Source of the DNA: a virus
DNA length: 61,944 nt
Virus record (IMG/VR): IMGVR_UViG_3300036768_001294
Span: 1-61,944 of that record
Strand: one strand, 5' to 3'
The notes under the pieces were generated by a model. The model had not been told where the DNA came from, did no database searches, and saw only the letters and a program-made list of their open reading frames with translations. Position numbers and translations under genes: made by a program. This document shows positions 6,540-53,089 of the stretch, piece by piece. Within the stretch, counting starts at the first letter, position 1, and each line of letters opens with the position of its first letter.

Positions 6540-6781
6540 AACAAGCCTTTAGAGTGGGTTGTATTGGACTAGTTATGCTCACGGCAGCTTATGCACAAGA
6601 TTGTCGCGATGAACTTGCCCAAGCTCGGTCAATGATTGAAGTGCTGCGTGCTAGTCGAGATCAGTCTGAACATCTACTCTCGCAAATGTACAGCCGTCTA
6701 CAACAGGCATTGAGAGAGTTAGAATCCCTCAAGCACAAGCCCGCTGACGAGTCATCCACCCCACAAGAGCAACCCAAATAG
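6518..6781 (+). CDS. Small exported coiled-coil protein, possibly spanin-like
   Basis: 87 residues. AAAGGAG lies just before ATG 6518, inside the end of the preceding gene. A hydrophobic segment at residues 13-25 ends in AYAQ, a signal-peptidase I type site. Residues 28-72 form a heptad-rich helix (ELAQARSMIEVLRASRDQSEHLLSQ...), and the tail is Pro/Glu-rich. Overlapping pairs of an exported protein and a coiled-coil protein are typical of spanins, but no lipobox is clear. Spanin is therefore only a possibility. Confidence 0.5.
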   Translation: MAVYRALKQAFRVGCIGLVMLTAAYAQDCRDELAQARSMIEVLRASRDQSEHLLSQMYSRLQQALRELESLKHKPADESSTPQEQPK

Positions 6782-6793
6782 GTGGAAGTCACT

Positions 6794-8149
6794 ATGCACA
6801 TTTGCTTTGTCAATCCACCAAGTCCATTTCTCATAAATGACCGTGGTGCCCCGCCATTGGGAATACTGCATTTGGCTGCAGAGTGCGATGCTGCCGGCAT
6901 GTCAGTATCATTCTGGGACATGACCGGCGATAAAAAGATCGGCAAAGCCCTTGGGGGGCGCGATGAAGATAAGCTGGAGCTGATCAAGCAAAGATTACAA
7001 TTGCTGATCGAGGCTCTCGAAGATCAAGACAATCCTATCGATCTCTTTGCAATTACTGCAACCAGCGCCCAGTATGATGCCGCTAAGCGTTTGATGTCCA
7101 TGATTCATCATGATTGGCCGAAGATTCCCATTGCCATTGGCGGACCACACGTCTCGGCTCTACCTCGGATGGCCCTTGAAGATGGATTTGATCTCGTTGT
7201 AGTCGGCGAAGCTGACATTGATTTTCCAGACTTTCTTGTCAACTATGGTAAAGATGGTCTTCGGCAACAACCATTTATCCTGACTTGTAAAAGAGAGCCA
7301 ACCGATTTAAATGCACTTCGTTACCCGCTACGCGAACTTGTGAACCTCGATAGCTACTGTGCGAATCTTACCGTTGGAGAGGGATTGGCAACAACCGTTC
7401 ACATGTCACGCGGTTGCCCATATGCTTGTGCATATTGTGTGCGGACACTTGGCTCCCTAGCGAGACGACTTCGCGTTCGCTCCATTGGCAATATTTGGAG
7501 CGAATTAACTCATCTCCGGGATACTTATGGCATTCATCGCTTTGTAGCCACCGATGATATTTGGGGCATTAAGAAAGAATGGGTGCAAGAATTTTGTGAC
7601 TGGATGGAAGGATCGCACTTTCGATTCCGTGTAAACTGCCGAGCTAATACTTTGCATAAAGAATTACTGCCTGCAATGAGGCGGGCCGGCATTACGGTCA
7701 TTTCATTTGGCTTTGAGAGCGGCTCAGAACGAGTACTCGCCGCAATTTCAAAGAATTCCGTTCAAGCCAATGAGGATGCTATAAAGGCTTGTCATGATGC
7801 TGGAATCTTAGTCAAAGCTTATCTTATTTTCGGTTTCGCAGAAGATGACGAAGCCAGCGCAGAGGCTACCAAGAAATTTATTGAGACGGCCAAGCCAGAC
7901 AGTGCTCAGATCGCTTATTTAGTACCACTACCTGGAACTCCAATCTATGAGCAAGCCATTGCAGGCGGCTGGAAGCCAAACTATAGCAGCTTATATCACA
8001 ACGGAGTCCATCATCGAGGCGGCATGAGTCGATTGCCGTGGCACACTGATAAGACAGCAGAAATTTATGAAGAACTTGTTGAATGGACCGAACGGTATTA
8101 TCAGCGAAAACAAGCTAGTCTTGAGTGTCCCATTAATCTAGGAGATTAG
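6794..8149 (+). CDS. B12-binding domain radical SAM enzyme (first of two)
   Basis: ATG 6794 is chosen over GTG 6782 because AGGTGG at 6780-6785 sits eight bases before it. The N-terminal ~165 residues are a cobalamin-binding Rossmann domain ('ICFVNPPSP', 'APPLGILHLAAE', 'IAIGGPHVSALP', 'VVVGEADIDFPDF'). A radical SAM barrel follows, with the CxxxCxxC cluster motif at C208, C212 and C215 (GCPYACAYC), 'GFESGSERVLAAI' and 'AYLIFGFAEDDEAS'. The domain order is that of methyltransferases and ring-forming enzymes acting on unreactive carbons. The substrate is unknown. Such enzymes are rare in phages; neighbours suggest a surface-sugar or virion-modification role. Confidence 0.85.
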   Translation: MHICFVNPPSPFLINDRGAPPLGILHLAAECDAAGMSVSFWDMTGDKKIGKALGGRDEDKLELIKQRLQLLIEALEDQDNPIDLFAITATSAQYDAAKRLMSMIHHDWPKIPIAIGGPHVSALPRMALEDGFDLVVVGEADIDFPDFLVNYGKDGLRQQPFILTCKREPTDLNALRYPLRELVNLDSYCANLTVGEGLATTVHMSRGCPYACAYCVRTLGSLARRLRVRSIGNIWSELTHLRDTYGIHRFVATDDIWGIKKEWVQEFCDWMEGSHFRFRVNCRANTLHKELLPAMRRAGITVISFGFESGSERVLAAISKNSVQANEDAIKACHDAGILVKAYLIFGFAEDDEASAEATKKFIETAKPDSAQIAYLVPLPGTPIYEQAIAGGWKPNYSSLYHNGVHHRGGMSRLPWHTDKTAEIYEELVEWTERYYQRKQASLECPINLGD

Positions 8150-8150
8150 A

Positions 8151-8246
8151 ATGCAGGCTTATAAAAATTGTCCCGCATGCGGGATAGGACAGCCTTATAG
8201 CTGAGGCGAAAGTTTCGTATGCCGGGTCTGCGGCTACTCAGATTAA
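8151..8246 (+). pseudogene. Zinc-ribbon minigene interrupted by an in-frame UGA
   Basis: ATG 8151 follows TAGGAG at 8139-8144 by six bases. The frame encodes MQAYKNCPACGIGQPYS, meets TGA at 8202-8204, then continues with GESFVCRVCGYSD to TAA at 8244-8246. The two CxxC pairs (CPAC and CRVC) form a complete rubredoxin-type zinc ribbon only if the TGA is read through. TGG (Trp) would differ by one base. It may be a decayed gene, a recoded gene, or a sequencing error. Neighbouring genes use TGA as a normal stop. Confidence 0.5.
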
Positions 8247-8259
8247 GGAAAAATTTTTC

Positions 8260-9027
8260 ATGATCTCAAAAATCTTTGCTTTTGCAATTGCCGCCATGCT
8301 CTTGATGATTCTCATGGTCGCTGGGTTATCCAGTGGTTGGTCTATTCAAGAGAGAGTCGACCAAACATATTTGACAATCAACGACAAATGCGGTGGAACA
8401 ATCATTTCAAAGAAACATAAGCTTGTATTGACTGCCGCTCATTGCATCTCGGATGATGAGCAGCAAAGTATACGCCGTGATTCTTTCAAAAATGGTCGAC
8501 ATGAAGAGCAATCGGGACAAGCCGAGATTCTTGCCAAGAATACCGATTTAGATCTGGCCATTCTTCAGATCAGCAGCAATTTCCAGATACTCAGCCAATC
8601 TTCCATCTTAGATCAGCATGAGCAAACCCTCCTCGGTGATGAGGTCTATGTCATTGGTAATCCACTAGGCCGATGGATAGCTACCGTCACCAAGGGAATC
8701 ATCTCAAATCTCTGGCGTGGAACCGAGTCAGGTCTTGACTGGGAGAATAAAGAAACACCGAGAAGGCTTTTCCAAGTTGATGCTGGCGCTTCAGGGGGGA
8801 ATTCTGGCGGCCCTGTCTATGATCGAGAAGGACATTTAATTGGCATTTTCGTTGAAAGCGCCGTTTCAGCCCAAGCCTTCTTCAATCCAATCATATCTGA
8901 GTACATCGGATTCGCCGTACATCACAGTACCATTCATAATTGGTTGAATGAGGTCTTGCCAGAAGAGCTTCTTTGTGGTATTACGTTCTACAAGCCCGAG
9001 ACATTATCAATCCTCACAACAGAATGA
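8260..9027 (+). CDS. Membrane-anchored trypsin-like serine protease
   Basis: 255 residues. An N-terminal hydrophobic segment (IFAFAIAAMLLMILMVAG) gives an export signal or anchor. The chymotrypsin-fold triad is visible: H61 in LTAAHC, D98 in DLDLAIL and S182 in GGNSGGPVYD, with the HtrA-like 'GDEVYVIGNPLGRW' loop. There is no PDZ domain, and the length fits a single protease domain. It likely cleaves proteins in the periplasm or envelope. It stands between radical SAM and muramidase genes. Roles in envelope penetration, lysis or virion processing are all possible. Confidence 0.85.
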   Translation: MISKIFAFAIAAMLLMILMVAGLSSGWSIQERVDQTYLTINDKCGGTIISKKHKLVLTAAHCISDDEQQSIRRDSFKNGRHEEQSGQAEILAKNTDLDLAILQISSNFQILSQSSILDQHEQTLLGDEVYVIGNPLGRWIATVTKGIISNLWRGTESGLDWENKETPRRLFQVDAGASGGNSGGPVYDREGHLIGIFVESAVSAQAFFNPIISEYIGFAVHHSTIHNWLNEVLPEELLCGITFYKPETLSILTTE

Positions 9028-9040
9028 GATTGAGGAGTAA

Positions 9041-9238
9041 ATGACAACAGTTGACCATCTTATGTCTTGGCTTTTCGACTATCGAAACCAGGTCTTAGAG
9101 TTGCTTCCGACTTGGCTCCGTAGTCAGGTTGATGGCCTATCCCAGGATGGAAAGGAGAATAGTCATGCTATGTCTCGACCATTTCAGACGGTTTGTCGTA
9201 ACTCCAGCCCTAATGGAGGTCCCAGGGTATTACTCTGA
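9041..9238 (+). CDS. Possible small protein overlapping the muramidase
   Basis: 65 codons with GAGGAG three bases before the ATG. The first ~35 residues (TVDHLMSWLFDYRNQVLELLPTWL) look like an amphipathic helix, while the last third has an out-of-frame look, overlapping the start of the muramidase by 74 bases. It could be a short holin-type or regulatory peptide, or spurious. No homology is recognised. Confidence 0.3.
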   Translation: MTTVDHLMSWLFDYRNQVLELLPTWLRSQVDGLSQDGKENSHAMSRPFQTVCRNSSPNGGPRVLL

Positions 9239-9668
9239 TTCCGCTGTCGAGTTGCTTATCGGGACAGCCCTTATTGAAAGCAACTTAATGCTTCTCAAGC
9301 AAGGGCTAGCGAATCGATACGACGGCATGGGTGTAGCGCTGGGCCTTTATCAAATCGAGCCGGCCACACATCATGATATTTGGCTGAATTACTTGGCGGC
9401 TCGTCCCAATTTCAGCACGTATATTTCAGCTTCTGGCAAGAGGCCGGATTCGGACTTGATTACCGACCTTAAATATGCCACCAAGATTGCCAGAACGATT
9501 TATTATCGTTCACCATTGCCACTTCCCCAGGCCAATGACATTGAGGGACTCGCTAAATACTGGAAGAAAGTTTACAACACAAAAGCCGGGAAAGGTGATG
9601 CAAAAAGATTTGTAGAATTATACTCTTCACTACATCGTCTTTCCTCGCCTTCAGGAGACGGCAAATGA
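9165..9668 (+). CDS. Lysozyme-like muramidase / transglycosylase
   Basis: ATG 9165 is chosen because AAAGGAG at 9151-9157 lies seven bases before it; the open frame extends to a TTG at 9129. The ~167-residue product carries 'LLIGTALIESN', with the catalytic-type Glu of SLT lysozyme folds, followed by 'GLYQIEPATHHDIW', and near the C-terminus 'GLAKYWKKVYNTKAGKG'. This pattern is found in phage lysozyme-like proteins and virion transglycosylases. It cuts peptidoglycan, either for lysis or for entry. There is no signal peptide, so a holin or virion delivery would be needed. Confidence 0.7.
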   Translation: MLCLDHFRRFVVTPALMEVPGYYSDSAVELLIGTALIESNLMLLKQGLANRYDGMGVALGLYQIEPATHHDIWLNYLAARPNFSTYISASGKRPDSDLITDLKYATKIARTIYYRSPLPLPQANDIEGLAKYWKKVYNTKAGKGDAKRFVELYSSLHRLSSPSGDGK

Positions 9669-10582
9669 GAATTCTTGTCACAGGTGGCATGGGAACAGTT
9701 GGCCGGCCGCTTGTCAAAGAACTTAAAATTCGCGGCCATGAAGTGTTTGCATGTGATTTAGCACATAGCTACCAGGATTGGTATCGGCGCTGCGATATCA
9801 GTGAGTTTCATGAACTCATTGATCTATTCGATAATTTGCCACCAATTGAACTGGTATATCATGCCGCAGCCGAATTTGGCCGACATAATGGCGAGCGATA
9901 CTCAGCGCGTCTCTGGAAAACCAACGTCGTTGGCACCAAACATATGCTGCGATTGCAGCGTGAGCTTGGCTTCAGAATGGTATTTTTCTCTAGCTCAGAG
10001 ATTTATGGTGACTACGACGGCGTGATGCACGAAGATGTTCCAGTCAAGTACCCCATAAGACTGCTGAACGATTATGCCATGACAAAATGGGTCTCGGAAA
10101 TGATGATTATGAACGAAACCGAGGCATGGGGAAACGAAATCGTTAGGGTTAGGCTCTTTAATACCTATGGGCCCGGCGAATATTTCACGCCTTTTCGATC
10201 AGTAATTGCCAGGTTTTGCTACTATGCAATCCATGGCAGGCCTTATGTTGTCTACCGAAATCACAAGCGCTCTTTCATTTATATTGATGATGCCGTAAAC
10301 ACCCTGGCAAATATCACTGATCATTTCAAGCCTGGTGAGGTTTATAACATAGGGAGTACGAAACTATACAGCATTGAGGAATTGTCTGATAAGATCCTGC
10401 GGTTAACAGGCAGGCATGAAAATCTTGCACATTTTCAGAATCAGGAATTACTCACGACTAAACAGAAAATTGTTGACACCGTCAGAGCCAGTGAAGATCT
10501 CGATCACAAGATTACTGTTGATATCGATGAAGGATTAACAAGAACCATAGAATGGATGAGGCAAGTTTATCATGAAGCCTGA
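9665..10582 (+). CDS. NAD-dependent sugar epimerase/dehydratase (extended SDR)
   Basis: 305 residues, overlapping the previous stop by four bases (ATGA). The Rossmann fingerprint TGGMGTVG is at residues 6-13. 'VYHAAAEFGRHNGE' and 'FFSSSEIYGD' follow, and the catalytic YxxxK is YAMTK. 'RLFNTYGPGEYFTPFRSVIARF' and 'RSFIYIDDAV' are typical of UDP-glucose 4-epimerase and dTDP-glucose dehydratase relatives. It makes or interconverts a nucleotide sugar in the cytoplasm. It starts the sugar island and is translationally coupled to the glycosyltransferase downstream. Confidence 0.88.
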   Translation: MRILVTGGMGTVGRPLVKELKIRGHEVFACDLAHSYQDWYRRCDISEFHELIDLFDNLPPIELVYHAAAEFGRHNGERYSARLWKTNVVGTKHMLRLQRELGFRMVFFSSSEIYGDYDGVMHEDVPVKYPIRLLNDYAMTKWVSEMMIMNETEAWGNEIVRVRLFNTYGPGEYFTPFRSVIARFCYYAIHGRPYVVYRNHKRSFIYIDDAVNTLANITDHFKPGEVYNIGSTKLYSIEELSDKILRLTGRHENLAHFQNQELLTTKQKIVDTVRASEDLDHKITVDIDEGLTRTIEWMRQVYHEA

Positions 10583-11390
10583 CTTGAGCATTGTGACTCC
10601 ATGCTACAACAAAGCTGAGCACTTGGTGAATTATTTCATTAGCCTGGGGAATCAATCATTTCCTCATGATCGTTTCGAAGTCCTCATCATTGATGATGGG
10701 AGCACAGATCAAACACTCCCAGTTGTACGAGAAGCTCGTCGGGTTTTTGATTATAAAATTCGATACATATATCTTGATCGCCCAGGTCGTTCTACAGCCA
10801 GTGTTCCGCATAATGTTGGAATACGCAAGGCTAAGGCTGATATTATCGTTCAAGTTGGGCCGGATATTATCATGGCCAAAGATGCTTTAGCATTGCATCA
10901 TGCTTATCAGAGTATGGGATTTGACCATCTCTATGTATTTGGACGATGCTATCGCGTGCACTCACCATTTGCTCAGTCCCTGCTGAATACTGTAGACTGG
11001 CAAAATGACTTTAGGCAATTAGAATCTCTTTTCATTGGCGAGTTTCATCATAGCCGTGTATGGTCAGTGCCTTATTGTGCCTCTCTTCATAAAAAGTGGT
11101 TTGAGCAGCTTCATGGTTATGATGAAAGCTATGATGACATATTCCCCGATGATTCTGACATGGTTGTGCGGTTATGGGCTATTGGCGTTGAGACATTTAA
11201 TGCCGAAGATATTTGGGCCGCTCATCAATGGCATGAGCAAGAAGATCCTCTATGCGGGCCCGATTGCCCATGTCCCTTAGCCCAAAAGAGCAAGACTTGG
11301 CCCGGCCCAGATATGAAATACAATGGGACGCCAGAGGATCTTGTAAGGAATCCGAATGGATGGGGGGAATTCCCAGCGGAGGAGATCTAA
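10572..11390 (+). CDS. Family 2 glycosyltransferase
   Basis: 272 residues, GT-A fold. 'LSIVTPCYNKAEHLVNYFISL' and 'FEVLIIDDGSTDQT' form the nucleotide-binding start of GT2 enzymes. 'ADIIVQVGPDIIMAKDAL' stands where the DxD metal site is expected, and 'GYDESYDDIFPDDSDMVVRLWAIG' holds the acidic catalytic-base region. The C-terminal Cys-rich tail 'CGPDCPCPL' is unusual. The start overlaps the epimerase by 11 bases. It probably transfers a sugar made by the neighbouring enzymes; donor and acceptor are unknown. Confidence 0.85.
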   Translation: MKPDLSIVTPCYNKAEHLVNYFISLGNQSFPHDRFEVLIIDDGSTDQTLPVVREARRVFDYKIRYIYLDRPGRSTASVPHNVGIRKAKADIIVQVGPDIIMAKDALALHHAYQSMGFDHLYVFGRCYRVHSPFAQSLLNTVDWQNDFRQLESLFIGEFHHSRVWSVPYCASLHKKWFEQLHGYDESYDDIFPDDSDMVVRLWAIGVETFNAEDIWAAHQWHEQEDPLCGPDCPCPLAQKSKTWPGPDMKYNGTPEDLVRNPNGWGEFPAEEI

Positions 11391-11391
11391 T

Positions 11392-11775
11392 ATGCCTTAT
11401 GAACTTCTTGAGCCGCCTATTGATCAAGGGTTTATTATAAAGGATTCGGGAAAACGTCAGCAGTATAAAAGCGGGATGGTCAGAGATACAGCGGATGACA
11501 AGGTCGATTATAGTCTTGTCCTTGATGGACCGATGTTTTTGCGTTGGGCCGAGCATTTGACAAAAGGTGCAAAGAAGTATACCAAGAGGAATTGGCTCCT
11601 GGCTACGGGAAAAGAAGAGTATGATCGTTTCCGGGAATCGGCTGTTCGGCATTTTGTTCAGTGGTTTTACGGCTTCACAGATGAGGATCATGCCGCAGCC
11701 GTCTTTTTCAACATCAACGCAGCTGAGTACTTAAGAGGGATTTTAGATGGCAAGCAAAAAGGTGGTCATGTTTGA
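11392..11775 (+). CDS. dATP/dGTP diphosphohydrolase-like protein (DUF5664/dGTP_diPhyd_N type)
   Basis: ATG 11392 has GGAGGAG seven bases upstream; an in-frame ATG at 11356 has none. The 127-residue protein contains 'KSGMVRDTADDKVDYSL', 'WAEHLTKGAKKYTKRNW' and 'ESAVRHFVQWFYG..DEDHAAAVFFNINAAEYL', the pattern of the phage dATP/dGTP diphosphohydrolase N-terminal family, MazG-like all-alpha pyrophosphatases with acidic metal ligands. It would convert purine dNTPs to dNMPs. It is followed by a deoxynucleotidase-like HAD protein, which could act on the product. Related proteins belong to 2-aminoadenine phages, but no purZ is in the window. Confidence 0.7.
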   Translation: MPYELLEPPIDQGFIIKDSGKRQQYKSGMVRDTADDKVDYSLVLDGPMFLRWAEHLTKGAKKYTKRNWLLATGKEEYDRFRESAVRHFVQWFYGFTDEDHAAAVFFNINAAEYLRGILDGKQKGGHV

Positions 11776-12346
11776 TGTCGATGGCGTTCTGGCCAATTGC
11801 AATTCGGTCTATGCAGAGCTAGCTGCGGAGAAAGTCAATAATTATATGCTACCGATGCATCCCCTAGAATCCCCTGGATGGTTTACCATGCATGAGCGAT
11901 TAGGGGATGATGCTCCAAAGATTTTCAATTATGTCTGGGAAAAGCCCGATGTCTTGGACGCTGCTGTCCCACTCTTCACGCCAGAGCAGGCCGTGAAGAT
12001 CAATCACATTCAGTCTTTAGCCAGCACCTACTTTGTGACCAATCGTGGGCCCGGATCTAAACGTGTGACCGAGGTATGGCTTGAGCGGCATCTTCGATTC
12101 AGGGCGACGGTCATCGTCAGCGCGCGTAAAGACCTTGTAGCTGAGGCCATTGGAGCTGATTTCTCAATCGAAGATCATGCGCCCAATGCCATTATGATTG
12201 CCATGGCCAGTCCAAGGACTCGGTCATATTTGCTCCATCGTCCTTACAATGAGATTGATGCCAAGCGCTTAGGAGCTTGCATTCAAATCGTGCTGAGCTT
12301 GGATACATTCCTCGACGATGTCTTGAGAGCGATTTCCAATGATTAA
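11747..12346 (+). CDS. HAD-family 5'(3')-deoxyribonucleotidase-like phosphatase
   Basis: 199 residues, overlapping the diphosphohydrolase by 29 bases. HAD motif I is 'VVMFDVDGVLAN' with Asp nucleophile and DxD. Motif II is 'YFVTNRG', and motif IV is 'DFSIEDHAPNAI'. The N-terminal cap region includes 'GWF..HERLGDDAPKIFNYVWEKPDVLDAAVPLF', similar to NT5C-type deoxynucleotidases. It likely dephosphorylates deoxynucleoside monophosphates. With the preceding gene it forms a two-step route from dNTP to deoxynucleoside. Confidence 0.75.
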   Translation: MASKKVVMFDVDGVLANCNSVYAELAAEKVNNYMLPMHPLESPGWFTMHERLGDDAPKIFNYVWEKPDVLDAAVPLFTPEQAVKINHIQSLASTYFVTNRGPGSKRVTEVWLERHLRFRATVIVSARKDLVAEAIGADFSIEDHAPNAIMIAMASPRTRSYLLHRPYNEIDAKRLGACIQIVLSLDTFLDDVLRAISND

Positions 12347-14405
12347 TATTTGGCTGGCTCAAGTAAATAATGCTTATGGCCATAGCCTTTTTCTTCCCTA
12401 CTCCGTAGGTTGCCTAGAGGCATATGCTCGGGCCCAGGAAGACCTTGCTCAATGCATATTCAAGGGCTACATCTTCAGAAGGGAGCCCCTTGACGATATC
12501 ATTAAGCGAATCGAGACTTCCGGGGACATCGACATCTTGGCAATCTCATGCTATCTCTGGAATTGGGAGTATTCCAAAGCACTCGGCACTGCTGTCAAAG
12601 AGCAGTGGCCCAATTGTCTCGTAATTATTGGTGGTCCACAGCTTCCAAGCCTTCCGCCCTCATGCCAATTATCAATCAAAGGCGAAGCTTCAGAAGCTTT
12701 GGCCCATGGTGGAGTATTTGATGAGTTCCCGTCGGCGGACATCGCGGTCTATGGTGAAGGGGAGCTTGCTTTTGCAGAAATCCTACGAGCAGTATCAGGA
12801 TTTCACAGAGGCAGAGGAATCGAGATTAAATCAGGAATCTTTGAGAAGTTACGAACGATTACAGGATTGGCTATTCGAACCGACAGAGGCACCTATTTTA
12901 CAGGAGAACCTCAGCGCATCCGAGATCTTTCCCAGCTCCCCTCCCCCTATCTCACAGGATGCTTCGATTCCCTCCTCGCTCATCGCGCCTATGACGAGGA
13001 AACGGGTGCTGAAACTCGCATAGACTGGCAAGCCAGTCTCGAAAGCAATCGTGGTTGTCCGTACATGTGCTCATTTTGTGCATGGGGTCCAGAATCACTT
13101 GCAAAGTTTTTCCAGTTTCCCTTAGAGCGCATTTATCGCGAAATTGAGTGGATGGGGCAGCAGCATATTCGATACCTGTATTCATGCGATGCCAATTTTG
13201 GGATTATCAAACGCGACGTTGATATCGCCAATATCCTAGCTTTTACCAAACAACTTTATGGCTATCCTAAGGAGTTTCGGGCTTGCACCGCCAAAAATAG
13301 CAATGATCAAGTCTTTGAAATCTCTAAAATCCTGCACGAAGCCGGCATGTCCAAAGGCGCCACACTGAGTTTTCAGAGCGTTGACCCCCACACCCTAGAT
13401 ATCATCAAACGAAAGAATATTAAGATTGATAATTTCGCCGAATTTCTTAAGCGTTACAGAGATCACGGCATTGCTACGTATACTGAACTCATTATAGGGT
13501 TACCGGGAGAAACAAGACAATCATTTGAGGCCGGGATAAACAGCATTCTTGATGCTGGCAAGCATGATGGGCTTAATATTTATCTTTGTCAAGTTTTACC
13601 CCAAACTGAATTCGATGATCCAGAGTACCGTAAAATTCACGGTATAATTACTGTCCGTTCACCTCTACTTCTGCAGCACAGCACTCCTATCAACGATCCC
13701 CACCAAGAATACAACGAGATTGTCATTGGCACCTCCAGCATGCCAACGAATATTTGGCGAGACACATACATGTTTTCGTGGGCTGTGCAGGCATTTCACG
13801 CGCTAGGTCTGACACGCTATCTCGCCATATTCTGTCGTCATGAGCTAGGCATGGCTTATTCCACATTCTATAACGCCCTGCTAGAGTGGATGCAAGCGAC
13901 CCCAAATTCCAATCTTGGCGATGAGTATCGCAATGTGTTATCGATTTGCGAGAGTGGAATGCGTGGAGGTGATTGGGGTCAAATTGATTATCGGTTTGGA
14001 AATATCATCTGGCCGACTGAAGAACTGACATTTCTGAGATTAGTGACTGATTATCAGAATACGTACAAAGAGATTGCCGTCTTCTTTGTGAATCTTCTTC
14101 GCCAGTGCTCTAGCCAATATATCTCAAGTATAGTCGTGAATCTTATTGATTATCAGAAAAATCTTCTTATTAGGCCAGATGATGATGGGCAAAGATCACT
14201 TGACATGGAAATCAACTATCATGAATACTTCTCAAAGATCTTAGATGATAAGTCGATGAAACCAATCATCAAGCCTGAATCGCTCATCATTATTTCCGCC
14301 AGATCTTATAAAGATTTGGAAGAATATGCTCGGCTGGTCGTTTGGTATGGACGAAAAGGCGGGAATTTTCTTCACAAGAATATTATTTGTTATTCGAAGG
14401 ACTGA
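12339..14405 (+). CDS. B12-binding domain radical SAM enzyme (second of two)
   Basis: 688 residues, overlapping the previous gene by eight bases. The N-terminal cobalamin-binding domain has 'PYSVGCLEAYAR', 'CLVIIGGPQLPSLPP' and 'DIAVYGEGELAFAEIL'. The radical SAM motif CxxxCxxC is at C240, C244 and C247 (GCPYMCSFC). 'ATLSFQSVDPHTLDIIKR' and 'YTELIIGLPGETRQSFEAG' are the barrel signatures of this class. The C-terminal ~250 residues are helical and of unknown function. It is only distantly similar to the first enzyme, so they probably perform different reactions. Substrate unknown; position suggests modification of a sugar, lipid or virion peptide. Confidence 0.85.
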   Translation: MINIWLAQVNNAYGHSLFLPYSVGCLEAYARAQEDLAQCIFKGYIFRREPLDDIIKRIETSGDIDILAISCYLWNWEYSKALGTAVKEQWPNCLVIIGGPQLPSLPPSCQLSIKGEASEALAHGGVFDEFPSADIAVYGEGELAFAEILRAVSGFHRGRGIEIKSGIFEKLRTITGLAIRTDRGTYFTGEPQRIRDLSQLPSPYLTGCFDSLLAHRAYDEETGAETRIDWQASLESNRGCPYMCSFCAWGPESLAKFFQFPLERIYREIEWMGQQHIRYLYSCDANFGIIKRDVDIANILAFTKQLYGYPKEFRACTAKNSNDQVFEISKILHEAGMSKGATLSFQSVDPHTLDIIKRKNIKIDNFAEFLKRYRDHGIATYTELIIGLPGETRQSFEAGINSILDAGKHDGLNIYLCQVLPQTEFDDPEYRKIHGIITVRSPLLLQHSTPINDPHQEYNEIVIGTSSMPTNIWRDTYMFSWAVQAFHALGLTRYLAIFCRHELGMAYSTFYNALLEWMQATPNSNLGDEYRNVLSICESGMRGGDWGQIDYRFGNIIWPTEELTFLRLVTDYQNTYKEIAVFFVNLLRQCSSQYISSIVVNLIDYQKNLLIRPDDDGQRSLDMEINYHEYFSKILDDKSMKPIIKPESLIIISARSYKDLEEYARLVVWYGRKGGNFLHKNIICYSKD

Positions 14406-14408
14406 GCC

Positions 14409-15116
14409 ATGCCAACTAAAACGATCAACGATGTCAGGTCCATCGTTAGTGGGCTTATTCAAGACCAAGCCGGCAAGCTAGATATTACTGCTCGCAATCT
14501 GGCCATTCAAAATGCCGTTGAATTGCACTCTATGAATGTGCCAGCTGTAAAATATCAGATCGTGACTGGTGTATCGAATAAAACGTCGAGAACGCCAACC
14601 GGTTGGTCTGATACAATCAGTCAGATCTTGAAAATCGAATTTCCGATTAATCAGCGTCCGCCTATTTATCTTGAAGAAGAAGACTTCGAAGTTATCAGAG
14701 CGGCAACAGCCTCAACGCCATTTCGCATTCTTTTTAAAACATTTATTCCCGGAGCCACATCGCCATTTGGCGTGATTTTCACGGCACCGCACAAATTAGG
14801 CATCACCGCTAATCAGAATACCATTCCAGATAATCATATTGTAGCTGTAGCAAATCTTGCGGCCAGTATTGCTTGTCAGCAGTTAGCGGCTTTTTATTCA
14901 CAAAGTGGAGATAGTTTGATTAATGCTGACTCGGTCAACTATCAATCCAAACTCCCTAATTATTTGCAAATATCGAGAGTGTATTTGAACTATTATATGA
15001 ATTTCTTTAAAATCGATGAGCGTGGATTTGCCAGACCAGCATCGATTACGGTGGACATTGATCGTGATTTTCAGTGGGGCGAACAATTCTTCTATCATCC
15101 GAGACGATGGAGGTAG
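14409..15116 (+). CDS. Probable neck / head-tail connector protein
   Basis: 235 residues beginning three bases after the radical SAM gene. A helical N-terminus (DVRSIVSGLIQDQAGKLDITARNLAIQNAVELHSM) is followed by a mixed region with 'FRILFKTFIPG', and then helices 'HIVAVANLAASIACQQLAAFYSQSGDSLINADSVNYQSK', a pattern common in phage neck and adaptor proteins. Position before an HK97-gp10-like protein and a tail protein supports a neck role. This is a context call, not a confident family match. Confidence 0.5.
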   Translation: MPTKTINDVRSIVSGLIQDQAGKLDITARNLAIQNAVELHSMNVPAVKYQIVTGVSNKTSRTPTGWSDTISQILKIEFPINQRPPIYLEEEDFEVIRAATASTPFRILFKTFIPGATSPFGVIFTAPHKLGITANQNTIPDNHIVAVANLAASIACQQLAAFYSQSGDSLINADSVNYQSKLPNYLQISRVYLNYYMNFFKIDERGFARPASITVDIDRDFQWGEQFFYHPRRWR

Positions 15117-15117
15117 C

Positions 15118-16221
15118 ATGGCGCGAATTGGGATGGTCAGCATTTGGTTTCATCGTGGTCAGACGGAAGTAACCCAGACAATTCGTCGAGCCTTAGAAGA
15201 TAATGGACATGAGGTATTCATTTTTGCACGGATGGGGCAAGTGTATGGTCAAGAGAAATGTGAAAGTGCTGATCCATATTTCGCTGTGAAAAATTTGACG
15301 ACTTGGCCCAAGTATCAGATTCCAGCTAAAGTCTTAGAATTATGGTCACGCAAGAATAAGCTTGATGCCGTAGTCTTCAATGAAGAGTATGATTTTTCAT
15401 TACCAGCTATCCTTGAAGCAAGCGGCATTAAAACCATTCACTATGTAGATTTTCTCCACAGCGATTGGAGAGAACCGCTCAAGAAGCATTATCATCTACT
15501 GTGGAGCGCTACATATAGAACCTTAAAACAGCTTGAAGATTTTGGTTTGCGCGAAAAAAGCTTTGGCATCTGGTGGGGGATTAATGCCAAACATCAACCG
15601 TATCAAGGCACAATAGAACCAGATTATGATTTCTTTACCAACCAAGGTTGGTTAGGCATCAATCTCCGCAAGGGATGTGATTTCTTTCTTAAAGCTTTTG
15701 ATCTTATCAATCAGCAAAATCGGTATACGGCCTTAATCCATGCGCAGGTGCCGCCTTCAATTCTCCCAGATGATCTGCAAGCCATTGTTCACAAATACCA
15801 AGAGGCCGGAAATCTGCAATGGCTCACGGCAACAGTGCCTCCGCCGGGTTTATATCATCGTGGGAAAGTCGTTGTGCAGCCGTCCAGATTAGAAGGTCTT
15901 GGCTTGACAATTCCTGAGGCAATGTGGCAGGGGCGGGCTGTCATCACTACCGATGCACAGCCCATGAGCGAGTTTATCGTTCAGCCAGAATTGAGGGCCA
16001 AAGTATCTAGCATTCATCAACGATATGATGGGCTTACGTTCCCGGAATGCGAGGTCGATATCTCCGATCTTGCGGAAGCCATGCAATCATGCGTTTCTGT
16101 AGGAGTGTTGTGGCGGGGCTACGGTGCATTCAACAGGAATCGCGCTGTTAGTTTATTTGACTGGGAGAAGTTCTGTAAGCAGATTCAGCGCAGCCTTGAT
16201 AGATTGGGGCTTCAGTCATGA
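15118..16221 (+). CDS. GT-B fold glycosyltransferase (GT4-like)
   Basis: ATG 15118 has AGGAGG just upstream; the open frame extends back to 15016 inside the neck gene. 368 residues. The C-terminal half carries 'VVVQPSRLEGLGLTIPEAMWQGRAVITTDAQPMSEFI', the E-x7-E-containing donor-binding motif of GT4 family enzymes. The N-terminal half is an acceptor-type Rossmann domain ('RIGMVSIWFHRGQTEVTQTIRRALEDNGHEVFIF'). It is cytoplasmic and retaining by family. It is wedged between two virion genes and shares their transcript, so it is made late in infection. Confidence 0.85.
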   Translation: MARIGMVSIWFHRGQTEVTQTIRRALEDNGHEVFIFARMGQVYGQEKCESADPYFAVKNLTTWPKYQIPAKVLELWSRKNKLDAVVFNEEYDFSLPAILEASGIKTIHYVDFLHSDWREPLKKHYHLLWSATYRTLKQLEDFGLREKSFGIWWGINAKHQPYQGTIEPDYDFFTNQGWLGINLRKGCDFFLKAFDLINQQNRYTALIHAQVPPSILPDDLQAIVHKYQEAGNLQWLTATVPPPGLYHRGKVVVQPSRLEGLGLTIPEAMWQGRAVITTDAQPMSEFIVQPELRAKVSSIHQRYDGLTFPECEVDISDLAEAMQSCVSVGVLWRGYGAFNRNRAVSLFDWEKFCKQIQRSLDRLGLQS

Positions 16222-16607
16222 TAAGCCCAAAGCTCTTACAGCATCAGGGAATGATTCATCATAAATTCCGTCACCATCAAATGACAATCTTACAGCTGGC
16301 AACATTTTTCCGCGTTGGCACACATACAATGAGGACCTTTCTTCGCGAAACGATGGAGGATTATAACGATATCGTTTTGGATTTGCGAAGGAAGATCAAG
16401 CAACGAAAACATGTTGCCAATCCAGGAAAATTGCGCCAGCTAGAGCTGCATCGTCGGAAAAGCGACTTTAGCGAGGCGGAATTAAAAGAAATCGAACAGC
16501 GTTTAATGGAGAGAAAGTCACAGACGCGCTTAATCTATCACGAATATATTATCGATCCCCTAGTTGGAGATGTTGACTATGTTGATCAACGTGATTGGGA
16601 AGTTTAA
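16218..16607 (+). CDS. Small protein with a possible helix-turn-helix
   Basis: 129 residues, overlapping the previous stop by four bases. 'MTILQLATFFRVGTHTMRTFLRE' at about residues 22-44 fits a helix-turn-helix. The rest is highly charged and helical ('LDLRRKIKQRKHVANPGKLRQLELHRRK'), like small terminase or regulator tails. Family not recognised. Its position inside the sugar/neck cluster gives no clear role. Confidence 0.5.
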   Translation: MISPKLLQHQGMIHHKFRHHQMTILQLATFFRVGTHTMRTFLRETMEDYNDIVLDLRRKIKQRKHVANPGKLRQLELHRRKSDFSEAELKEIEQRLMERKSQTRLIYHEYIIDPLVGDVDYVDQRDWEV

Positions 16608-17496
16608 GCAGAATCCTTGGGGCGTTGAATGGTTTGTTAAGGATGCTCTTGAAAAGCTAGAGCATCAGGTGAATTGCTTTGATATCAATGCCTCATATGC
16701 CATTATTAGAAATATTGCCGTTGGCTCTCTTACGATTGTCTTACAGGGTTATGGTTTGAAACCAGCGCTTATCGAGGGCGGGCGGCGAATCACAGGAAAG
16801 CCATGGATTCTCTGGCATGCCGAGGTCATGTCTCCTTTAGCAAATCCTCATGATGAAGTCGTCCTGTTCAAGATGTCCCAACTAGCTCCTATTGCCCCAA
16901 GCTTTGATGCCATTTTCCATAACTGCAACTGCTGTCTTGAAGGGATTAGAAAGCTCAGCAAGGGTCGTCCTGTTTATTGGGCTCCGGCCAATGGCGTTGC
17001 TCCAGAACTACATCGGAAACGGAAAGAAATCGCCAAGCGATATCCTCTTGGGTTTTATGGTTATCCTTCATCGAGACGGACGGATATTATTAACTACTTA
17101 AGATTTCATGGTGTAGAGATTGAATGGAAGAAGCCAGAAGATGGATTCTATGGAGAGAAGCTAGTAGAATTTATCAATCAGTGTCATTGCATGCTTAATT
17201 TGCACTACAGCGATACGCTCAATACTGAGTGTCGTCTGTACGAAAGTCTTGGCTGCGGTGTACCTGTGATTTCAGAGCCGATCTCCATGCCTGATCTTTT
17301 CTATGGCATTCCGAAAGCCCTGATGTTTGCTGAAGGCAAGCATGAGCTGCTGGAGCTTTGGAAATCCATCGAGGGAAAATTAAGTAAGCTCGTTGATGAA
17401 GGCGAGAAAGCCATGCATTGGCTGCATGAAAATGCCTCGTATGTGCAGCGCTGCGATCACTTGCTAAAAATGATTAATGGGCTTTCGCGATGCTGA
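16579..17496 (+). CDS. Glycosyltransferase, CgeB-like GT-B
   Basis: About 305 residues. ATG 16579 is favoured, with GGAG at 16566-16569; TTG 16564 and ATG 16570 are alternatives. The C-terminal domain has 'LVEFINQCHCMLNLHYSDTLNTECRLYESLGCGVPVISEPI', the Glyco_trans_1_2 (CgeB/SpoU-like) signature where the Glu contacts the donor ribose. The N-terminal half includes 'KPWILWHAEV' and 'FHNCNCCLEGIRKLSKGRPVYWAPANGVAPELH'. The beginning overlaps the preceding gene. It is one of four glycosyltransferases in this cluster. Confidence 0.75.
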   Translation: MLINVIGKFKQNPWGVEWFVKDALEKLEHQVNCFDINASYAIIRNIAVGSLTIVLQGYGLKPALIEGGRRITGKPWILWHAEVMSPLANPHDEVVLFKMSQLAPIAPSFDAIFHNCNCCLEGIRKLSKGRPVYWAPANGVAPELHRKRKEIAKRYPLGFYGYPSSRRTDIINYLRFHGVEIEWKKPEDGFYGEKLVEFINQCHCMLNLHYSDTLNTECRLYESLGCGVPVISEPISMPDLFYGIPKALMFAEGKHELLELWKSIEGKLSKLVDEGEKAMHWLHENASYVQRCDHLLKMINGLSRC

Positions 17497-18032
17497 TCGA
17501 AGTGACGTGTCAGCTTGATGAAGAGACCGAACGAAAGCTCTTCGAAAATCCGCGGCTCTTAGCTCGCTTCCGAGCCGCAGTCCAGCGTGCCTGCGATCAA
17601 CTAGAGGCAAATGTTAAGAAACGGGCGCCGAAGGCTACTGGAGATTTTCTCAAATCTATCGACTGTACCGTTCACGAATTTGGTCATCCATATCGCATCG
17701 TAGGCCGAGTGTACTCAGTTCACCCAGCAGCCGATGCCATTGAGTTTGGAGCCGGGCCACATGTTGTGCCGACTCGGGCAATCTTGCGCTGGATGCAAGC
17801 TGTTAATATGCCCATAGGCAAAGGATTAACCGTGCAAGAGGTTGCCGAACGTATTCAGAAGAGAATTGCTGAACGCGGTCTGAAACCGCACTTTACTTTT
17901 ACAGATGCTTATCAGGATGCCGTTGGCATTTTTAAGAGTGAGCTTGATCCAATCTTAGATAGTATTGACGGACATGCAGAATACTCAGCTGAATTGAGTT
18001 CAAGTGGCTCATGGCAACTACCTTGGGAATAG
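17490..18032 (+). CDS. HK97-gp10-like tail-completion / neck protein
   Basis: 180 residues, overlapping the glycosyltransferase by seven bases. 'ACDQLEANVKKRAPKATGDFLKSIDCTV' followed by 'RIVGRVYSVHPAADAIEFGAGPHVVPTRAILRWMQ' matches the HK97-gp10/Mu-gpG pattern (P.TG.L..SI ... A..IEFGT.PH..P). These proteins sit between head and tail or at the tail completion ring. It shows that the sugar genes are truly inside the morphogenesis operon. A minus-strand gene at 52.3 kb shares the same VEVG..AHV.P motif. Confidence 0.75.
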   Translation: MLIEVTCQLDEETERKLFENPRLLARFRAAVQRACDQLEANVKKRAPKATGDFLKSIDCTVHEFGHPYRIVGRVYSVHPAADAIEFGAGPHVVPTRAILRWMQAVNMPIGKGLTVQEVAERIQKRIAERGLKPHFTFTDAYQDAVGIFKSELDPILDSIDGHAEYSAELSSSGSWQLPWE

Positions 18033-18075
18033 CATCAATTCCCTAACTTTGGTACTCTGGGTTATGAGGGATGCG

Positions 18076-19164
18076 ATGGAAATTGTCATATTTGTCGGCG
18101 CTAGGCCGGGATATATCAAATCATGGTCTGTCTATAAGGCTTTTACGCAGCACGGAATATTTCCAACAGTTGTGGCCACTGGACAACATCATGACATTCT
18201 CAAGCAGCACCAGGAAATATTCTTGATGCCAGTCGATCATTGGTTGATAACAGAACAGCCACATTATGATTTGGCTGACCTTTATGGACAGATCTATAAT
18301 AAATCTTTTAAGTATTTGAAAGAACATTGTCCCAAAGCTGTATTTGTCAATGGTGACACAACAAGTGCTTTGGCCGCAGCGCAAGCAGCGTTTCATTTAA
18401 ATATTCCTGTAGCTCATATTGAGTCGGGACTGAGATCATTTGATCTAGAAAACCCATACCCCGAAGAATTTAATAGAATTACGATAGATGCTTTAAGCAC
18501 TTGGCTATTTCCTCCAACGGCATTAGCCGAGAGAAATTGCCGGCTTATTAATTCGCATGCATCTTCTGTTATAACCGGAAACACAGTCATAGATGCTTTG
18601 ATGGAGGGACTAAAGCTTCTTCCGCAAAATGAAATTACCTATGCCTCTAAGTATCTGCTCATAGATCTACATCGTCGTGAATTATCGGCAAATGCATTAA
18701 GTGAAATCATGGAGAAGATATTCCTGGCTGCCAAAGATCATGACTATATGGTAATTTGGCCGGCGCATCCCAATCCCAAGATTCAAGCAGAGGCTATGAA
18801 ATGGAAAGATAATGATACCTTTCTGATCATAGAGCCTCAAAATTACTTACAGTTTATTCGTCTTATGAGAGATGCCGACCTCATCCTCACAGACAGTGGT
18901 GGCGTTGTTGAAGAAGCCATTACATTAGGCACGCCAACGCTTCAGATCAGGAAGGCTACCGATAGACAGGAAGCTATTTTGCATCAGTGCTCATGGTTAA
19001 CGGGACTAGATGCCGATGAAGTTTACAGATTCTTGATTGGTGCCATTCAATATGCAGAAGAATGGCATAAATGGATTGAACGAGTCAAGAATCCTTATGG
19101 TAACGGACATGCTGGAGAAAAGATCGTTAAGTCTTTTCTAGGGAGATTGTCGCATGGCAAGTGA
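18076..19164 (+). CDS. wecB: UDP-N-acetylglucosamine 2-epimerase
   Basis: About 362 residues. ATG 18076 is chosen because family members start with a short 'MKI...GTRP..IK' strand, here 'MEIVIFVGARPGYIKSWSVYKAF'; GTG 18004 lies inside the tail gene. 'FVNGDTTSALAAAQAAFHLNIPVAHIESGLRSFD...YPEEFNRITID', 'VITGNTVIDAL' and 'LILTDSGGVVEEAITLGTPTLQIR' are the substrate and UDP-binding motifs. It converts UDP-GlcNAc to UDP-ManNAc in the cytoplasm, a precursor of surface polymers such as enterobacterial common antigen or teichoic acids. The gene lies between two virion genes. Confidence 0.9.
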   Translation: MEIVIFVGARPGYIKSWSVYKAFTQHGIFPTVVATGQHHDILKQHQEIFLMPVDHWLITEQPHYDLADLYGQIYNKSFKYLKEHCPKAVFVNGDTTSALAAAQAAFHLNIPVAHIESGLRSFDLENPYPEEFNRITIDALSTWLFPPTALAERNCRLINSHASSVITGNTVIDALMEGLKLLPQNEITYASKYLLIDLHRRELSANALSEIMEKIFLAAKDHDYMVIWPAHPNPKIQAEAMKWKDNDTFLIIEPQNYLQFIRLMRDADLILTDSGGVVEEAITLGTPTLQIRKATDRQEAILHQCSWLTGLDADEVYRFLIGAIQYAEEWHKWIERVKNPYGNGHAGEKIVKSFLGRLSHGK

Positions 19165-20431
19165 GCATGTTTGTCTTGTGGTCATGACGAAAAATGAGTC
19201 TGAGAATGTTTTGGCAATGCTTAAGTCCTGTGAGGGTCTATATAGTGCCGTCGTCTGGGGCTTTGACGACAAGACCGAGGATAATACGAAGGAGTTGGTG
19301 TTAGAGTATTTCAAGGACAAAGATCATATTCAACAAGTTTTCTATGATTTCACCTGGAAGAATGACTTCAGCTATGCCAGAAATCTCTATTTGGATTTAG
19401 CTCTGCAAAAGTTTCCCAATAAGCCATGGCTACTCATTCTCGATGGTGATGATCTCTTATCTCCGGGAGATCCCGATAATGGCATCCCGGATAGTCGAGA
19501 GATTATCAAGGAGCTTACCAGCCTTCCCGTGGATCAAGTCAAGAGTAAGGCCATCAATTTTTACGTGTACCTTGATCCAGATCCATACGGTATTCCTACA
19601 CTCTTCTATCCAAGAGTGCACCTCGTGCGCAATCTCCCAGACGTGCGATTTCAGTTCGCAAGCCACAATGCTATCACCGTGAGTGGAGATGAACAGATCC
19701 TCGCCCGTGAGTGCATCGTCTTACATTCTCAGAAGCCCAAGAAGCGAGCAGAACGGGAAAAGCAACGCCTAGAGATGAACGTGCCCAATCTAAAAAAACA
19801 AGGTGATATTGAAGGGCAAGATGGTGCTAGAGGTCTCTTCTATCTCGGCAATACCTTGATGGATGGTGGCGACCATGAAGGAGCCGAGAAAGCCTATCTC
19901 GAATATCTGGAGAAATCCACTTGGTCAGATGAGCGTTACCAGACTCGATTGCATTTGGCGGGACTATATCTCCTGAAAAATAAGATCGATGAAGCCGAAA
20001 ATCAGGCGAGACTGGCGCTCAGTGAACAAAACCAGTGGTCAAGAGCTGAAGCCTATGTCGTGCTTTCTGATTGTGCACTTGCACGTGGCAATACGCTGGA
20101 ATGCATCCATTGGTTGCGCATCGCTGCCTCATGCATGCCTCAAGTCAATGGTCTTTTTCTCCAGGGACATCTTTTCACCTGGTTTCCCCATTGGCGCCTG
20201 GCCATGATTTTGGATAGGCTTGGTTTCTATGAAGAAGCGCTGCATCATGCAGAACAAGCCGCGCGATATCGGCCGTCACCCGAGATTGTTCAGGGCGTTG
20301 AGATACTTCGAAATTATATCGCCATGCTCAAGCAGCTCAATAAGAAAATTGCACAACTTCATGATGTTGAAACGTTCGTGCCACTCAATTGCATTAGTCA
20401 AAAGAAATTAGCAGAGCGACTGGGCCTATGA
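19154..20431 (+). CDS. Family 2 glycosyltransferase fused to TPR repeats
   Basis: 425 residues. The N-terminal GT-A domain has 'VCLVVMTKNESENVLAMLKSCEGL', 'VVWGFDDKTEDNTKELV', 'DFSYARN' and the metal-binding 'LLILDGDDLL'. From about residue 225, TPR-like helices follow ('RGLFYLGNTLMDGGDHEGAEKAYLEYLE', 'TRLHLAGLYLLKNKIDEAENQARLAL', 'AEAYVVLSDCALARGNTLECIHWL'). GT2-TPR proteins often glycosylate proteins (SunS and related S/O-glycosyltransferases), so this is the best candidate for a protein-glycosylating enzyme here. It overlaps wecB by 11 bases and the tail gene by four. Confidence 0.82.
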   Translation: MASEHVCLVVMTKNESENVLAMLKSCEGLYSAVVWGFDDKTEDNTKELVLEYFKDKDHIQQVFYDFTWKNDFSYARNLYLDLALQKFPNKPWLLILDGDDLLSPGDPDNGIPDSREIIKELTSLPVDQVKSKAINFYVYLDPDPYGIPTLFYPRVHLVRNLPDVRFQFASHNAITVSGDEQILARECIVLHSQKPKKRAEREKQRLEMNVPNLKKQGDIEGQDGARGLFYLGNTLMDGGDHEGAEKAYLEYLEKSTWSDERYQTRLHLAGLYLLKNKIDEAENQARLALSEQNQWSRAEAYVVLSDCALARGNTLECIHWLRIAASCMPQVNGLFLQGHLFTWFPHWRLAMILDRLGFYEEALHHAEQAARYRPSPEIVQGVEILRNYIAMLKQLNKKIAQLHDVETFVPLNCISQKKLAERLGL

Positions 20432-21681
20432 ATGTTACTGGGATATTAGAGAAAATTAAAAGCATTATTGCCGGTGTGACCGGAGTAGGAAAGGTATATA
20501 CATTTCGCAGATGGGTTCCTCAAGATAAAGATTTTCAAAGCGTGGTCGTTACAGGAAATCGGATCAATTTTTGGGATATCTATCGTTCCAGTGGTGAAGA
20601 GCGTTGGCCAAATGAATTTCAGTTTCAGAGATCCCACAACATTGTTGTGAGGGGATTTTTATCAGCAAAAGATGCCAGCGCCTCAGAACAAGAATTTCAG
20701 AATATCGTTGAGCGCGTGTCCAAACGGTTTCGTCTCAAGACAAATCGAACACTGAATGAAACAGTTGAATCATTAGGAAGTGGGGAACATCAAGGGCTCC
20801 AGATCTCATCTATCGATTACGGATCGATTCATGGTGCACTCTGTCATATGTTTCAGGGTCGAATTGTTGTCATTGAGAAACCGACCAATGTGCTTTCTGG
20901 GGCTACCGCCACTCAATTCAATGGTCCGCGCATTTTCTTCAAAAATGAAATCACTGATCCAAATCAATTAGCATCAATTTCCATTCGCCCAGGATTTCCG
21001 CTCTCATTCATGATTGATGAATCACCCAAGACTGTCTGGCGCTCAAAGGCCCTTGATACACCAGAGGCAAATGCTCCATATGTCCAGATTGATATCGATC
21101 TTGGAGCAAGCAAAGATATTCGTGCCTTTGCTGTAAAGAATCATAACTTTGGGGCTGGCACATATAGACTCTTCCATGGTATCACACAGATTGCTCTTGT
21201 TGAGATTACCAACTTGCTTAGCACAAAGACACCAGGACAGTGGGTAAGTTTCTTTCCAACCATCACAGCTCGCTACTGGCGGTTTGTTATGCAAGAGGCT
21301 CTTCAGCCGTCTGGATTCTTTCAAATTGGTGAACTGTGGCTTGGGAATGTTCTAGATTTCAGTAAGTGGCATGACGATAATTCGGAAAGCATCTTTTCAG
21401 ACAGACGACAACACGAGACTGACGGCGGCCAACGTTGGCGTTTAACAGGATTTCAGAGGCGTTCCAGAACATATTCATTTAGAAACATCGATCAAGATGG
21501 AGATTGGGCTATTTGGCAAAGGATTTTCAGTGATCGAGGTCGAGAGCATCCATTTTATTTTACGGTCAATCCCGCTGTGCCTTCTTCATCTTTTTTCTGC
21601 ACGATCAAAGAGGCACTAACTGAACGTAATGTGCAGACCAATAAAGTAAATCTTTCTATCACCCTTGATGAGGAGCTGTGA
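20428..21681 (+). CDS. Tail protein with discoidin-like domain
   Basis: 417 residues. The first ~150 residues ('ILEKIKSIIAGVTGVGKVYTFRRW ... EFQNIVERVSKRFR') resemble tail-terminator type proteins. Residues ~195-310 ('RSKALDTPEANAPYVQIDIDLGASKDIRAFAVKNHNF ... ARYWRFVMQEAL ... IGELWLG') have the F5/8 discoidin pattern of carbohydrate-binding beta sandwiches. The C-terminal part ('RSRTYSFRNID..WAIWQRIFSDRGREHPFYFTVNP') is typical of tail proteins. Probably a tail component that also touches surface glycans. Its domain reading is by pattern only. Confidence 0.6.
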   Translation: MNVTGILEKIKSIIAGVTGVGKVYTFRRWVPQDKDFQSVVVTGNRINFWDIYRSSGEERWPNEFQFQRSHNIVVRGFLSAKDASASEQEFQNIVERVSKRFRLKTNRTLNETVESLGSGEHQGLQISSIDYGSIHGALCHMFQGRIVVIEKPTNVLSGATATQFNGPRIFFKNEITDPNQLASISIRPGFPLSFMIDESPKTVWRSKALDTPEANAPYVQIDIDLGASKDIRAFAVKNHNFGAGTYRLFHGITQIALVEITNLLSTKTPGQWVSFFPTITARYWRFVMQEALQPSGFFQIGELWLGNVLDFSKWHDDNSESIFSDRRQHETDGGQRWRLTGFQRRSRTYSFRNIDQDGDWAIWQRIFSDRGREHPFYFTVNPAVPSSSFFCTIKEALTERNVQTNKVNLSITLDEEL

Positions 21682-27475: not shown

Positions 27476-27487
27476 GGAAGAAAGCCA

Positions 27488-36964: not shown

Positions 36965-37283
36965 CGTCCTGCTTTCTCCTAATTTTCAGATTGTTGCGAA
37001 AACGTTTCACCAAGACCAACCATCCAGCTGCCTATGATATAGCATCAAGCTAGGAACAGGTCAAGAGCGAATTCTGAATGCGATGAAAAAAATCTGACAC
37101 CCGTCTTTCCACGACGAACCTCCAATCTTTTTCCATATGTTGTTCCACAAAACCCATCCCACCCTTCTTTCCACCTTCCGCCAATAAATCCAACCATATA
37201 GCATATTCAACTGCCTCACCACCGCCACACCACAAAAGAAAATTCCCTTCCCCCCACACCCCCTATCCCTTTTAAGAAAATAT

Positions 37284-37331
37284 GAGTGAGTGAGTGAGTG
37301 CTTGCTTTTTTTCTTTTTTTTTTTTTTTTTT
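37284..37331. repeat. GAGT microsatellite and poly-T tract
   Basis: Four GAGT units (37284-37300) are followed by CTTGC, seven T, one C and eighteen T ending at 37331. Such a tract is easily melted, and is also prone to sequencing slippage, so its exact length is uncertain. It could serve as an unwinding element. Confidence 0.7.
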
Positions 37332-53060: not shown

Positions 53061-53089
53061 AGCTTTTACAGTTCGCTCCTCATCTGAGT

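Follow-up and report, generated by a model that had tools for sequence, protein, structure and literature searches.

Why would a tailed phage carry enzymes that build a glycan among the genes for the neck of its virion? This question is raised by positions 9665 to 20431 of IMGVR_UViG_3300036768_001294, a linear viral record (61,944 bases) that was analysed at its full length and is referred to here as the window. Virion glycosylation as such has precedents in a few actinobacterial phages, and it affects immune recognition. An earlier note, based on the letters of the window alone, had described a sugar-modification island that is woven gene by gene into a neck and tail operon, and had proposed that the island glycosylates a virion protein; all genes named in that note lie on the plus strand. 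This paper describes the island, with gene identities assigned by homology via Pfam, PHROG, NCBIfam, and PDB comparisons, and its counterparts in related neck modules. The data revealed that the interleaving is a real, lineage-specific insertion into a conserved virion operon. The reading that we favor, to which we give about even chances, is that soluble enzymes inserted in the neck operon glycosylate a virion protein in the cytosol, late in infection and possibly with a C-methylated sugar.

The virion genes concerned encode a head-tail connector (neck) protein (14409..15116, +), an HK97-gp10-like neck/tail-completion protein (17490..18032, +), and a tail-terminator-like protein with an in-frame fusion to an F5/8C-type distal-tail-like domain (20428..21681, +). 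None of the three matched a named Pfam virion-protein family. Relatives of the neck module are Microcystis phage Mae-JY22 and 37 further loci (23 viral contigs and 14 bacterial genomes) that were recruited by alignment of the 14409 family, all distant from the window at ~30% identity. Profiles built on these loci (up to 38) matched 14409 at 8e-52, 17490 at 4e-16 to 1.4e-37, and the terminator-like part of 20428, i.e., its first ~150 residues, at 6e-29. Mae-JY22 has three adjacent homologues, matching 14409 with 28% identity (1.5e-23), the N-terminus of 20428 at 9e-14, and 17490 weakly when taken alone (E 0.002). Homologues of 14409 occur in all 38 loci, directly 5' of the gp10-like and terminator genes in every locus that shows all three, and the gene order in the relatives reads portal, Mu-F-like, capsid, connector, gp10-like, terminator, tail tube, and tape measure, where the capsid, tail tube, and tape measure labels were deduced from their order, size, and sequence features. 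This gene order supports the neck and gp10-like labels, and the connector, gp10-like, terminator succession of an HK97-type neck module can be recognized in the window as well. The neck, gp10-like, and tail assignments of the earlier note agree with both the profile matches and the gene order of the relatives. Single-protein pattern scans with 21925, 14409, 19154, and TerL returned no relatives. The 36 loci obtained from a tail-protein alignment (A1) have only the tail module in common with the window and were not used as relatives. Aphanizomenon phage Yong-DA (L039, ON073792.1) was likewise rejected; it has both sugar enzymes, but also exopolysaccharide genes, rep, parA, and parB and no virion genes, and it resembles a plasmid.

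In six relatives, the second domain of 20428 (f58 profile 6.2e-6 at approximately residues 166-383) is encoded 3.6-4.5 kb further downstream by a gene of its own or a part of one, past the tail tube and tape-measure genes, and no homologue of either of these was detectable in the window. At 61752-61943, a sequence that runs off the contig end weakly resembles (E 1.9e-4) the N-terminal portion of portal from the relatives, which indicates that the record is a fragment that lacks the portal/capsid segment. Either the long tail has been lost, giving a short-tailed virion, or the tube and tape-measure genes have moved into the missing segment. The profiles of the relatives detected no capsid gene in the window, and since that gene lies outside the fragment, the natural main target of glycosylation may be missing from view. 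A minus-strand gene at 52314-53102, amid rightward early genes, contains a second gp10-like stretch (i-E 1.3e-8).

Mae-JY22 and its approximately 37 related loci carry the same virion genes in the same order as the window, but uninterrupted. Gaps could be compared for the 35 loci in which all three neck genes are visible, ~28 of them distinct once nearly identical contigs are discounted. In all 35, the connector gene is directly followed by the gp10-like gene (median gap -1 nucleotide (nt), range -4 to 265), and the latter by the terminator gene (median -1 nt, range -14 to 72), whereas the window has 2,373 and 2,395 nt at these positions. The first insertion, at the connector/gp10 junction, consists of two GT-B glycosyltransferase genes and open reading frame (ORF) 16218, and the second, at the gp10/terminator junction, of genes for a UDP-N-acetylglucosamine (UDP-GlcNAc) 2-epimerase and for a family 2 glycosyltransferase with tetratricopeptide repeats (GT2-TPR). 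A further block 5' of the neck gene holds a short-chain dehydrogenase/reductase (SDR) gene, a GT2 gene, a PF18909 gene, an NT5C-like HAD gene, and a radical S-adenosylmethionine (radical-SAM) gene. GT2 or radical-SAM domains were detected in 0/15 related viral records by a search that was positive for 14/14 control genomes and, for GT2, for the window itself. Because the neck genes are contiguous in all 35 relatives and these domains are absent from the 15 records, the sugar genes are lineage-specific insertions at two junctions, together with a block before the connector. The gene-by-gene weave of the earlier note therefore applies to the two junctions (three and two ORFs), but not to the remaining enzymes, which form the block 5' of the neck gene, and the interleaving is not kept in the related phages. 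Moreover, the note had overlooked two cobalamin radical-SAM genes, 6782 and 12339, and ORFs 11392, 11747, and 16218. Neither GT2-TPR 19154 nor radical-SAM 12339 had a tblastn match among 50,697 phage records, and GT2-TPR had a match in 1/299 genomes of a single bacterial phylum, which is not enough to suggest where the gene came from.

Refinement of gene starts altered some of the overlaps reported earlier. Five are real, namely SDR/GT2 (11 nt), GT-B/16218 (4 nt), GT/gp10 (7 nt), 2-epimerase/GT2-TPR (11 nt), and GT2-TPR/terminator (4 nt, ATGA), but two vanish since the starts proposed at 15016 and 18004 were over-extended; the likely start 15118 has GGAGG upstream and lies 1 nt past the neck stop, and the likely start 18076 has GAGG upstream and lies 43 nt past the gp10 stop. 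The gp10-like and terminator genes are without a Shine-Dalgarno sequence and start inside the upstream transferase genes. These two overlaps and the missing Shine-Dalgarno sequences make it likely that the sugar genes are translated together with the late virion genes, as the earlier note had suggested. A Shine-Dalgarno sequence precedes the gp10-like gene in 20/35 relatives and the terminator gene in 20/35; as several relatives thus also lack one, the coupling may be ancestral and kept by the insertions. Promoter-like sites (44 vs 37.2 +/- 4.6) and terminator-like sites (18 vs 16.6 +/- 3.9) were near chance, and no RNA families were found in the window.

The epimerase, the four glycosyltransferases, and the UDP-GlcNAc 2-epimerase of the earlier note are present where it had placed them, according to Pfam, NCBIfam, and PDB matches. 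The non-hydrolysing, WecB-type UDP-GlcNAc 2-epimerase (18076..19164, +; Pfam 1.3e-80; PDB 6vlb 3.5e-57) scores 274.3 bits against the NCBIfam wecB equivalog TIGR00236 (cut-off 210.15), and the motifs GDT, H-(I/V)-E-x-GLRS, P-x-PEE-x-NR, and HRRE are all present in alignment with 6vlb and 1v4v. Since the protein passes a curated cut-off and retains the catalytic motifs, its predicted production of UDP-N-acetylmannosamine (UDP-ManNAc) is well supported. The earlier proposal of an N-acetylmannosamine-type sugar holds to the extent that UDP-ManNAc is expected; ManNAc as the attached sugar finds no support, and the radical-SAM methylases probably change the nature of the sugar. The SDR protein (9665..10582, +) is a nucleotide-sugar epimerase/dehydratase (Pfam Epimerase 2.7e-39), with the 'dTDP-glucose 4,6-dehydratase related protein' 8w3u/9ar1 as best PDB match (2.1e-97). 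Next to these enzymes, the island encodes a small PF18909-domain protein resembling the N-terminal part of dATP/dGTP diphosphohydrolase (11392..11775, +; Pfam 1.8e-10; AGGAG at start 11392), a HAD-type 5'-nucleotidase-like protein (NT5C/phrog_420; 11747..12346, +; PHROG 1.8e-13, Pfam NT5C 1.4e-5), and, in the first insertion, a 129-residue protein without Pfam or PHROG match (16218..16607, +).

The glycosyltransferases bear on the acceptor. The family 2 enzyme of the 5' block (10572..11390, +; Pfam Glycos_transf_2 1e-16) has no membrane segment by hydropathy. The first insertion encodes two GT-B type enzymes, both with refined starts, at 15118..16221 (+; Pfam Glyco_trans_1_4 4.2e-12) and 16579..17496 (+; Pfam Glyco_trans_1_2 2.9e-8), and the second encodes GT2-TPR (19154..20431, +; Pfam TPR_2 4e-10, Glycos_transf_2 1.3e-6). 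The nearest solved relatives of the latter are the Listeria flagellin O-GlcNAc transferase GmaR (8e-4) and the peptide S-glycosyltransferase SunS of prophage SPbeta (1e-3), both of which use polypeptide acceptors. Like GmaR, 19154 combines GT2 and TPR, in that order, in one protein, and the two have a W-(K/E)-NDFS-x-ARN stretch in common, but the antirepressor domain of GmaR is absent from 19154. The TPR domain of GmaR has been proposed to recognise flagellin (PMC9638930). SunS resembles 19154 in its GT2 domain and in being phage-encoded; the peptide acceptor, a bacteriocin, is that of SunS. The design thus points to protein glycosylation, as the earlier note had argued, but through a weak match. 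No membrane segment was predicted in any glycosyltransferase, SDR, 2-epimerase, or radical-SAM protein of the island (maximal 19-residue hydropathy <=1.45).

Both overlooked radical-SAM genes encode cobalamin-binding proteins. The product of 12339..14405 (+) is a homologue of the TokK/CysS/KedN5 group of cobalamin-dependent radical-SAM C-methyltransferases (PDB TokK 1e-96 over ~520 residues, CysS 2.6e-49); TokK methylates a carbapenem and CysS a cystobactamid. It keeps the cluster cysteines of the CX3CX2C motif (C240, C244, and C247), and its W74 and W249 align with TokK W76 and W215, tryptophans with active-site roles (PMC9692996). Both the cobalamin-binding and the radical-SAM Pfam domains are recognized, the former at 30.4 bits, slightly below the threshold of 32.1, and 241.7 bits against NCBIfam KedN5 (cut-off 700) mark the protein as a homologue and not as KedN5 itself. 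The known enzymes belong to antibiotic biosynthesis, whereas 12339 lies among phage virion genes. TokK/CysS-like genes are common on IMG/VR viral contigs (at least 563 matching stretches), and their neighbours on other viral contigs are often nucleotide-sugar SDRs (19/111) and UDP-sugar dehydrogenases (7/111), which links such methylases to sugar pathways. Given the homology of 12339 and these neighbours, a C-methylated sugar in the glycan of this phage is a reasonable guess. The second gene (6782..8149, +), a possible outlying part of the island, encodes a BchE/HpnJ/ApyD-like protein (Pfam B12-binding 1.5e-14, Radical_SAM 2.2e-14; NCBIfam ApyD 5.7e-40, below cut-off). Among TokK-like viral loci, the nearest ones (L077-L080) contain UDP-sugar dehydrogenases next to more than one radical-SAM gene; they were rejected as kin of this operon, being multi-radical-SAM islands without neck genes.

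Taken as a pathway, the favored glycosylation of a virion protein would depend on soluble glycan-building enzymes that are inserted at two or more places in the neck operon of a tailed phage and translated with its late virion genes. The 2-epimerase 18076 would convert host UDP-GlcNAc into UDP-ManNAc, and the SDR protein 9665 would alter another nucleotide sugar. GT2-TPR would then put the first sugar onto a virion protein in the cytosol, with its TPR part holding that protein, the other three transferases would lengthen the glycan, and one or both cobalamin radical-SAM proteins would C-methylate a sugar. Candidate targets are the neck protein, the gp10-like protein, the terminator fusion, and four tandem tail proteins; the capsid protein lies outside the fragment. 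A more specific version makes the coupling itself the reason for the placement; each inserted transferase pair would feed ribosomes into the neck gene behind it (gp10-like or terminator fusion), so that neck or tail proteins receive their glycan during synthesis, the TokK-type methylase providing a C-methylated sugar, and the neck-tail junction would also be rebuilt by the terminator-distal tail fusion. This version we regard as doubtful.

Several findings weigh against virion glycosylation. The likeness of GT2-TPR to GmaR and SunS is weak (E ~1e-3, and 18.5 bits against the SunS NCBIfam cut-off of 350). To our knowledge, most GT2-TPR proteins are uncharacterised. Since the PF18909 and NT5C-like genes of the block act on nucleotides, more than a sugar pathway is encoded there. 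None of the relatives keeps the insertion, and the conservation of a link between transferase and virion genes can therefore not be judged from them. Finally, late expression would also suit a late change of the host surface.

Such a late surface modification, in which precursors of lipopolysaccharide or capsule are altered so that released progeny do not adhere to debris or infected cells, or other phages are excluded, is possible but somewhat unlikely. A WecB-type epimerase, an SDR protein, and glycosyltransferases are typical of envelope polysaccharide synthesis, and similar islands of SDR, UDP-sugar-dehydrogenase, and radical-SAM genes are common on viral contigs. The GT2 domain of 10572 weakly matches GtrB-like PHROGs, a point in common with the Gtr serotype-conversion cassettes of temperate phages. 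However, the island has no three-gene cassette, and in the absence of membrane segments it provides no GtrA/GtrC-type flippase or membrane transferase, which makes a lipid-linked, O-antigen-converting system of the Gtr type unlikely, though soluble transferases could still use host carriers. Moreover, the island lies within the neck operon and not in an early or lysogenic region, and GT2-TPR points, if weakly, to protein acceptors.

It is less probable still that the sugar and nucleotide genes are cargo without a role in the virion, landed at gene boundaries by chance recombination and serving host metabolism as passengers. Such an origin would fit the presence of PF18909 and NT5C-like genes in the block, as well as the lack of GT2 and radical-SAM domains in the 15 related viral records. 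Chance is harder to reconcile with two separate insertions that both preserve the downstream coupling, and with intact frames and retained catalytic motifs. Foreign codon usage of the island was considered and rejected; island and virion genes showed no detectable difference (means 0.053 vs 0.065, p = 0.27), and there was no sign of recent arrival.

DNA hypermodification, in which the transferases glycosylate modified bases and dNTP-acting genes supply unusual nucleotides, is very improbable: phage transferases that glycosylate DNA exist (Pyle 2024, as cited in PMC12619734) and the PF18909, NT5C-like, and dCTP-deaminase genes act on nucleotides, but the island sits in a virion operon distant from the replication genes at 49-61 kb, and the families listed (25/30 in one scan) for this incomplete contig included no base hydroxylase, hydroxymethylase/thymidylate-synthase, TET, or DNA methyltransferase, which argues against DNA as acceptor. 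The preference of the earlier note for an acceptor other than DNA or the host surface early in infection is in line with the enzymes that were and were not encountered.

Virion glycosylation by this island would resemble that of mycobacteriophages such as Che8, in which phage-encoded glycosyltransferases are thought to act on virion proteins, and glycans are described on capsid and tail-tube subunits (Freeman et al. 2023, as cited in PMC12619734 and PMC11256854). The transferase genes of the Che8-related mycobacteriophage Maravista lie near the 3' genome end (PMC11256854), whereas those of the window are in the neck module, and the passages citing the mycobacteriophage work mention no cobalamin radical-SAM methylase of the kind carried by the window. 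Within the collections searched, a putative glycan pathway spliced into a neck module, with a TokK-type methylase in it, is new, its function being predicted from homology. If the proposal is correct, relatives with an uninterrupted operon represent natural 'before' states for asking what a virion glycan is for, and cobalamin-dependent C-methylation would be added to phage glycans. Even with a target other than the virion, the locus shows that an operon of coupled assembly genes can take up enzyme genes between its members and stay intact.

Some other regions of the window deserve mention. Directly 5' of the island, 6222-9668 is a probable lysis region with the radical-SAM gene 6782 inside; it encodes a phrog_3108 protein, a trypsin-like protease that begins with a hydrophobic segment at its N-terminus, and two small proteins with hydrophobic N-termini, one of which weakly matches phrog_13662. 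The four tandem tail proteins, encoded at 26504-30404, are paralogues (phrog_9600) with 42-46% identity to the first, a conserved N-terminal half, and a divergent C-terminal half. The stretch 36374-40300, in which no plasmid match or RNA family was found, reaches 62% GC in a contig of ~46-48% GC; next to it are two near-repeats (37506-37698) and a leftward gene resembling Phd/YefM antitoxins.

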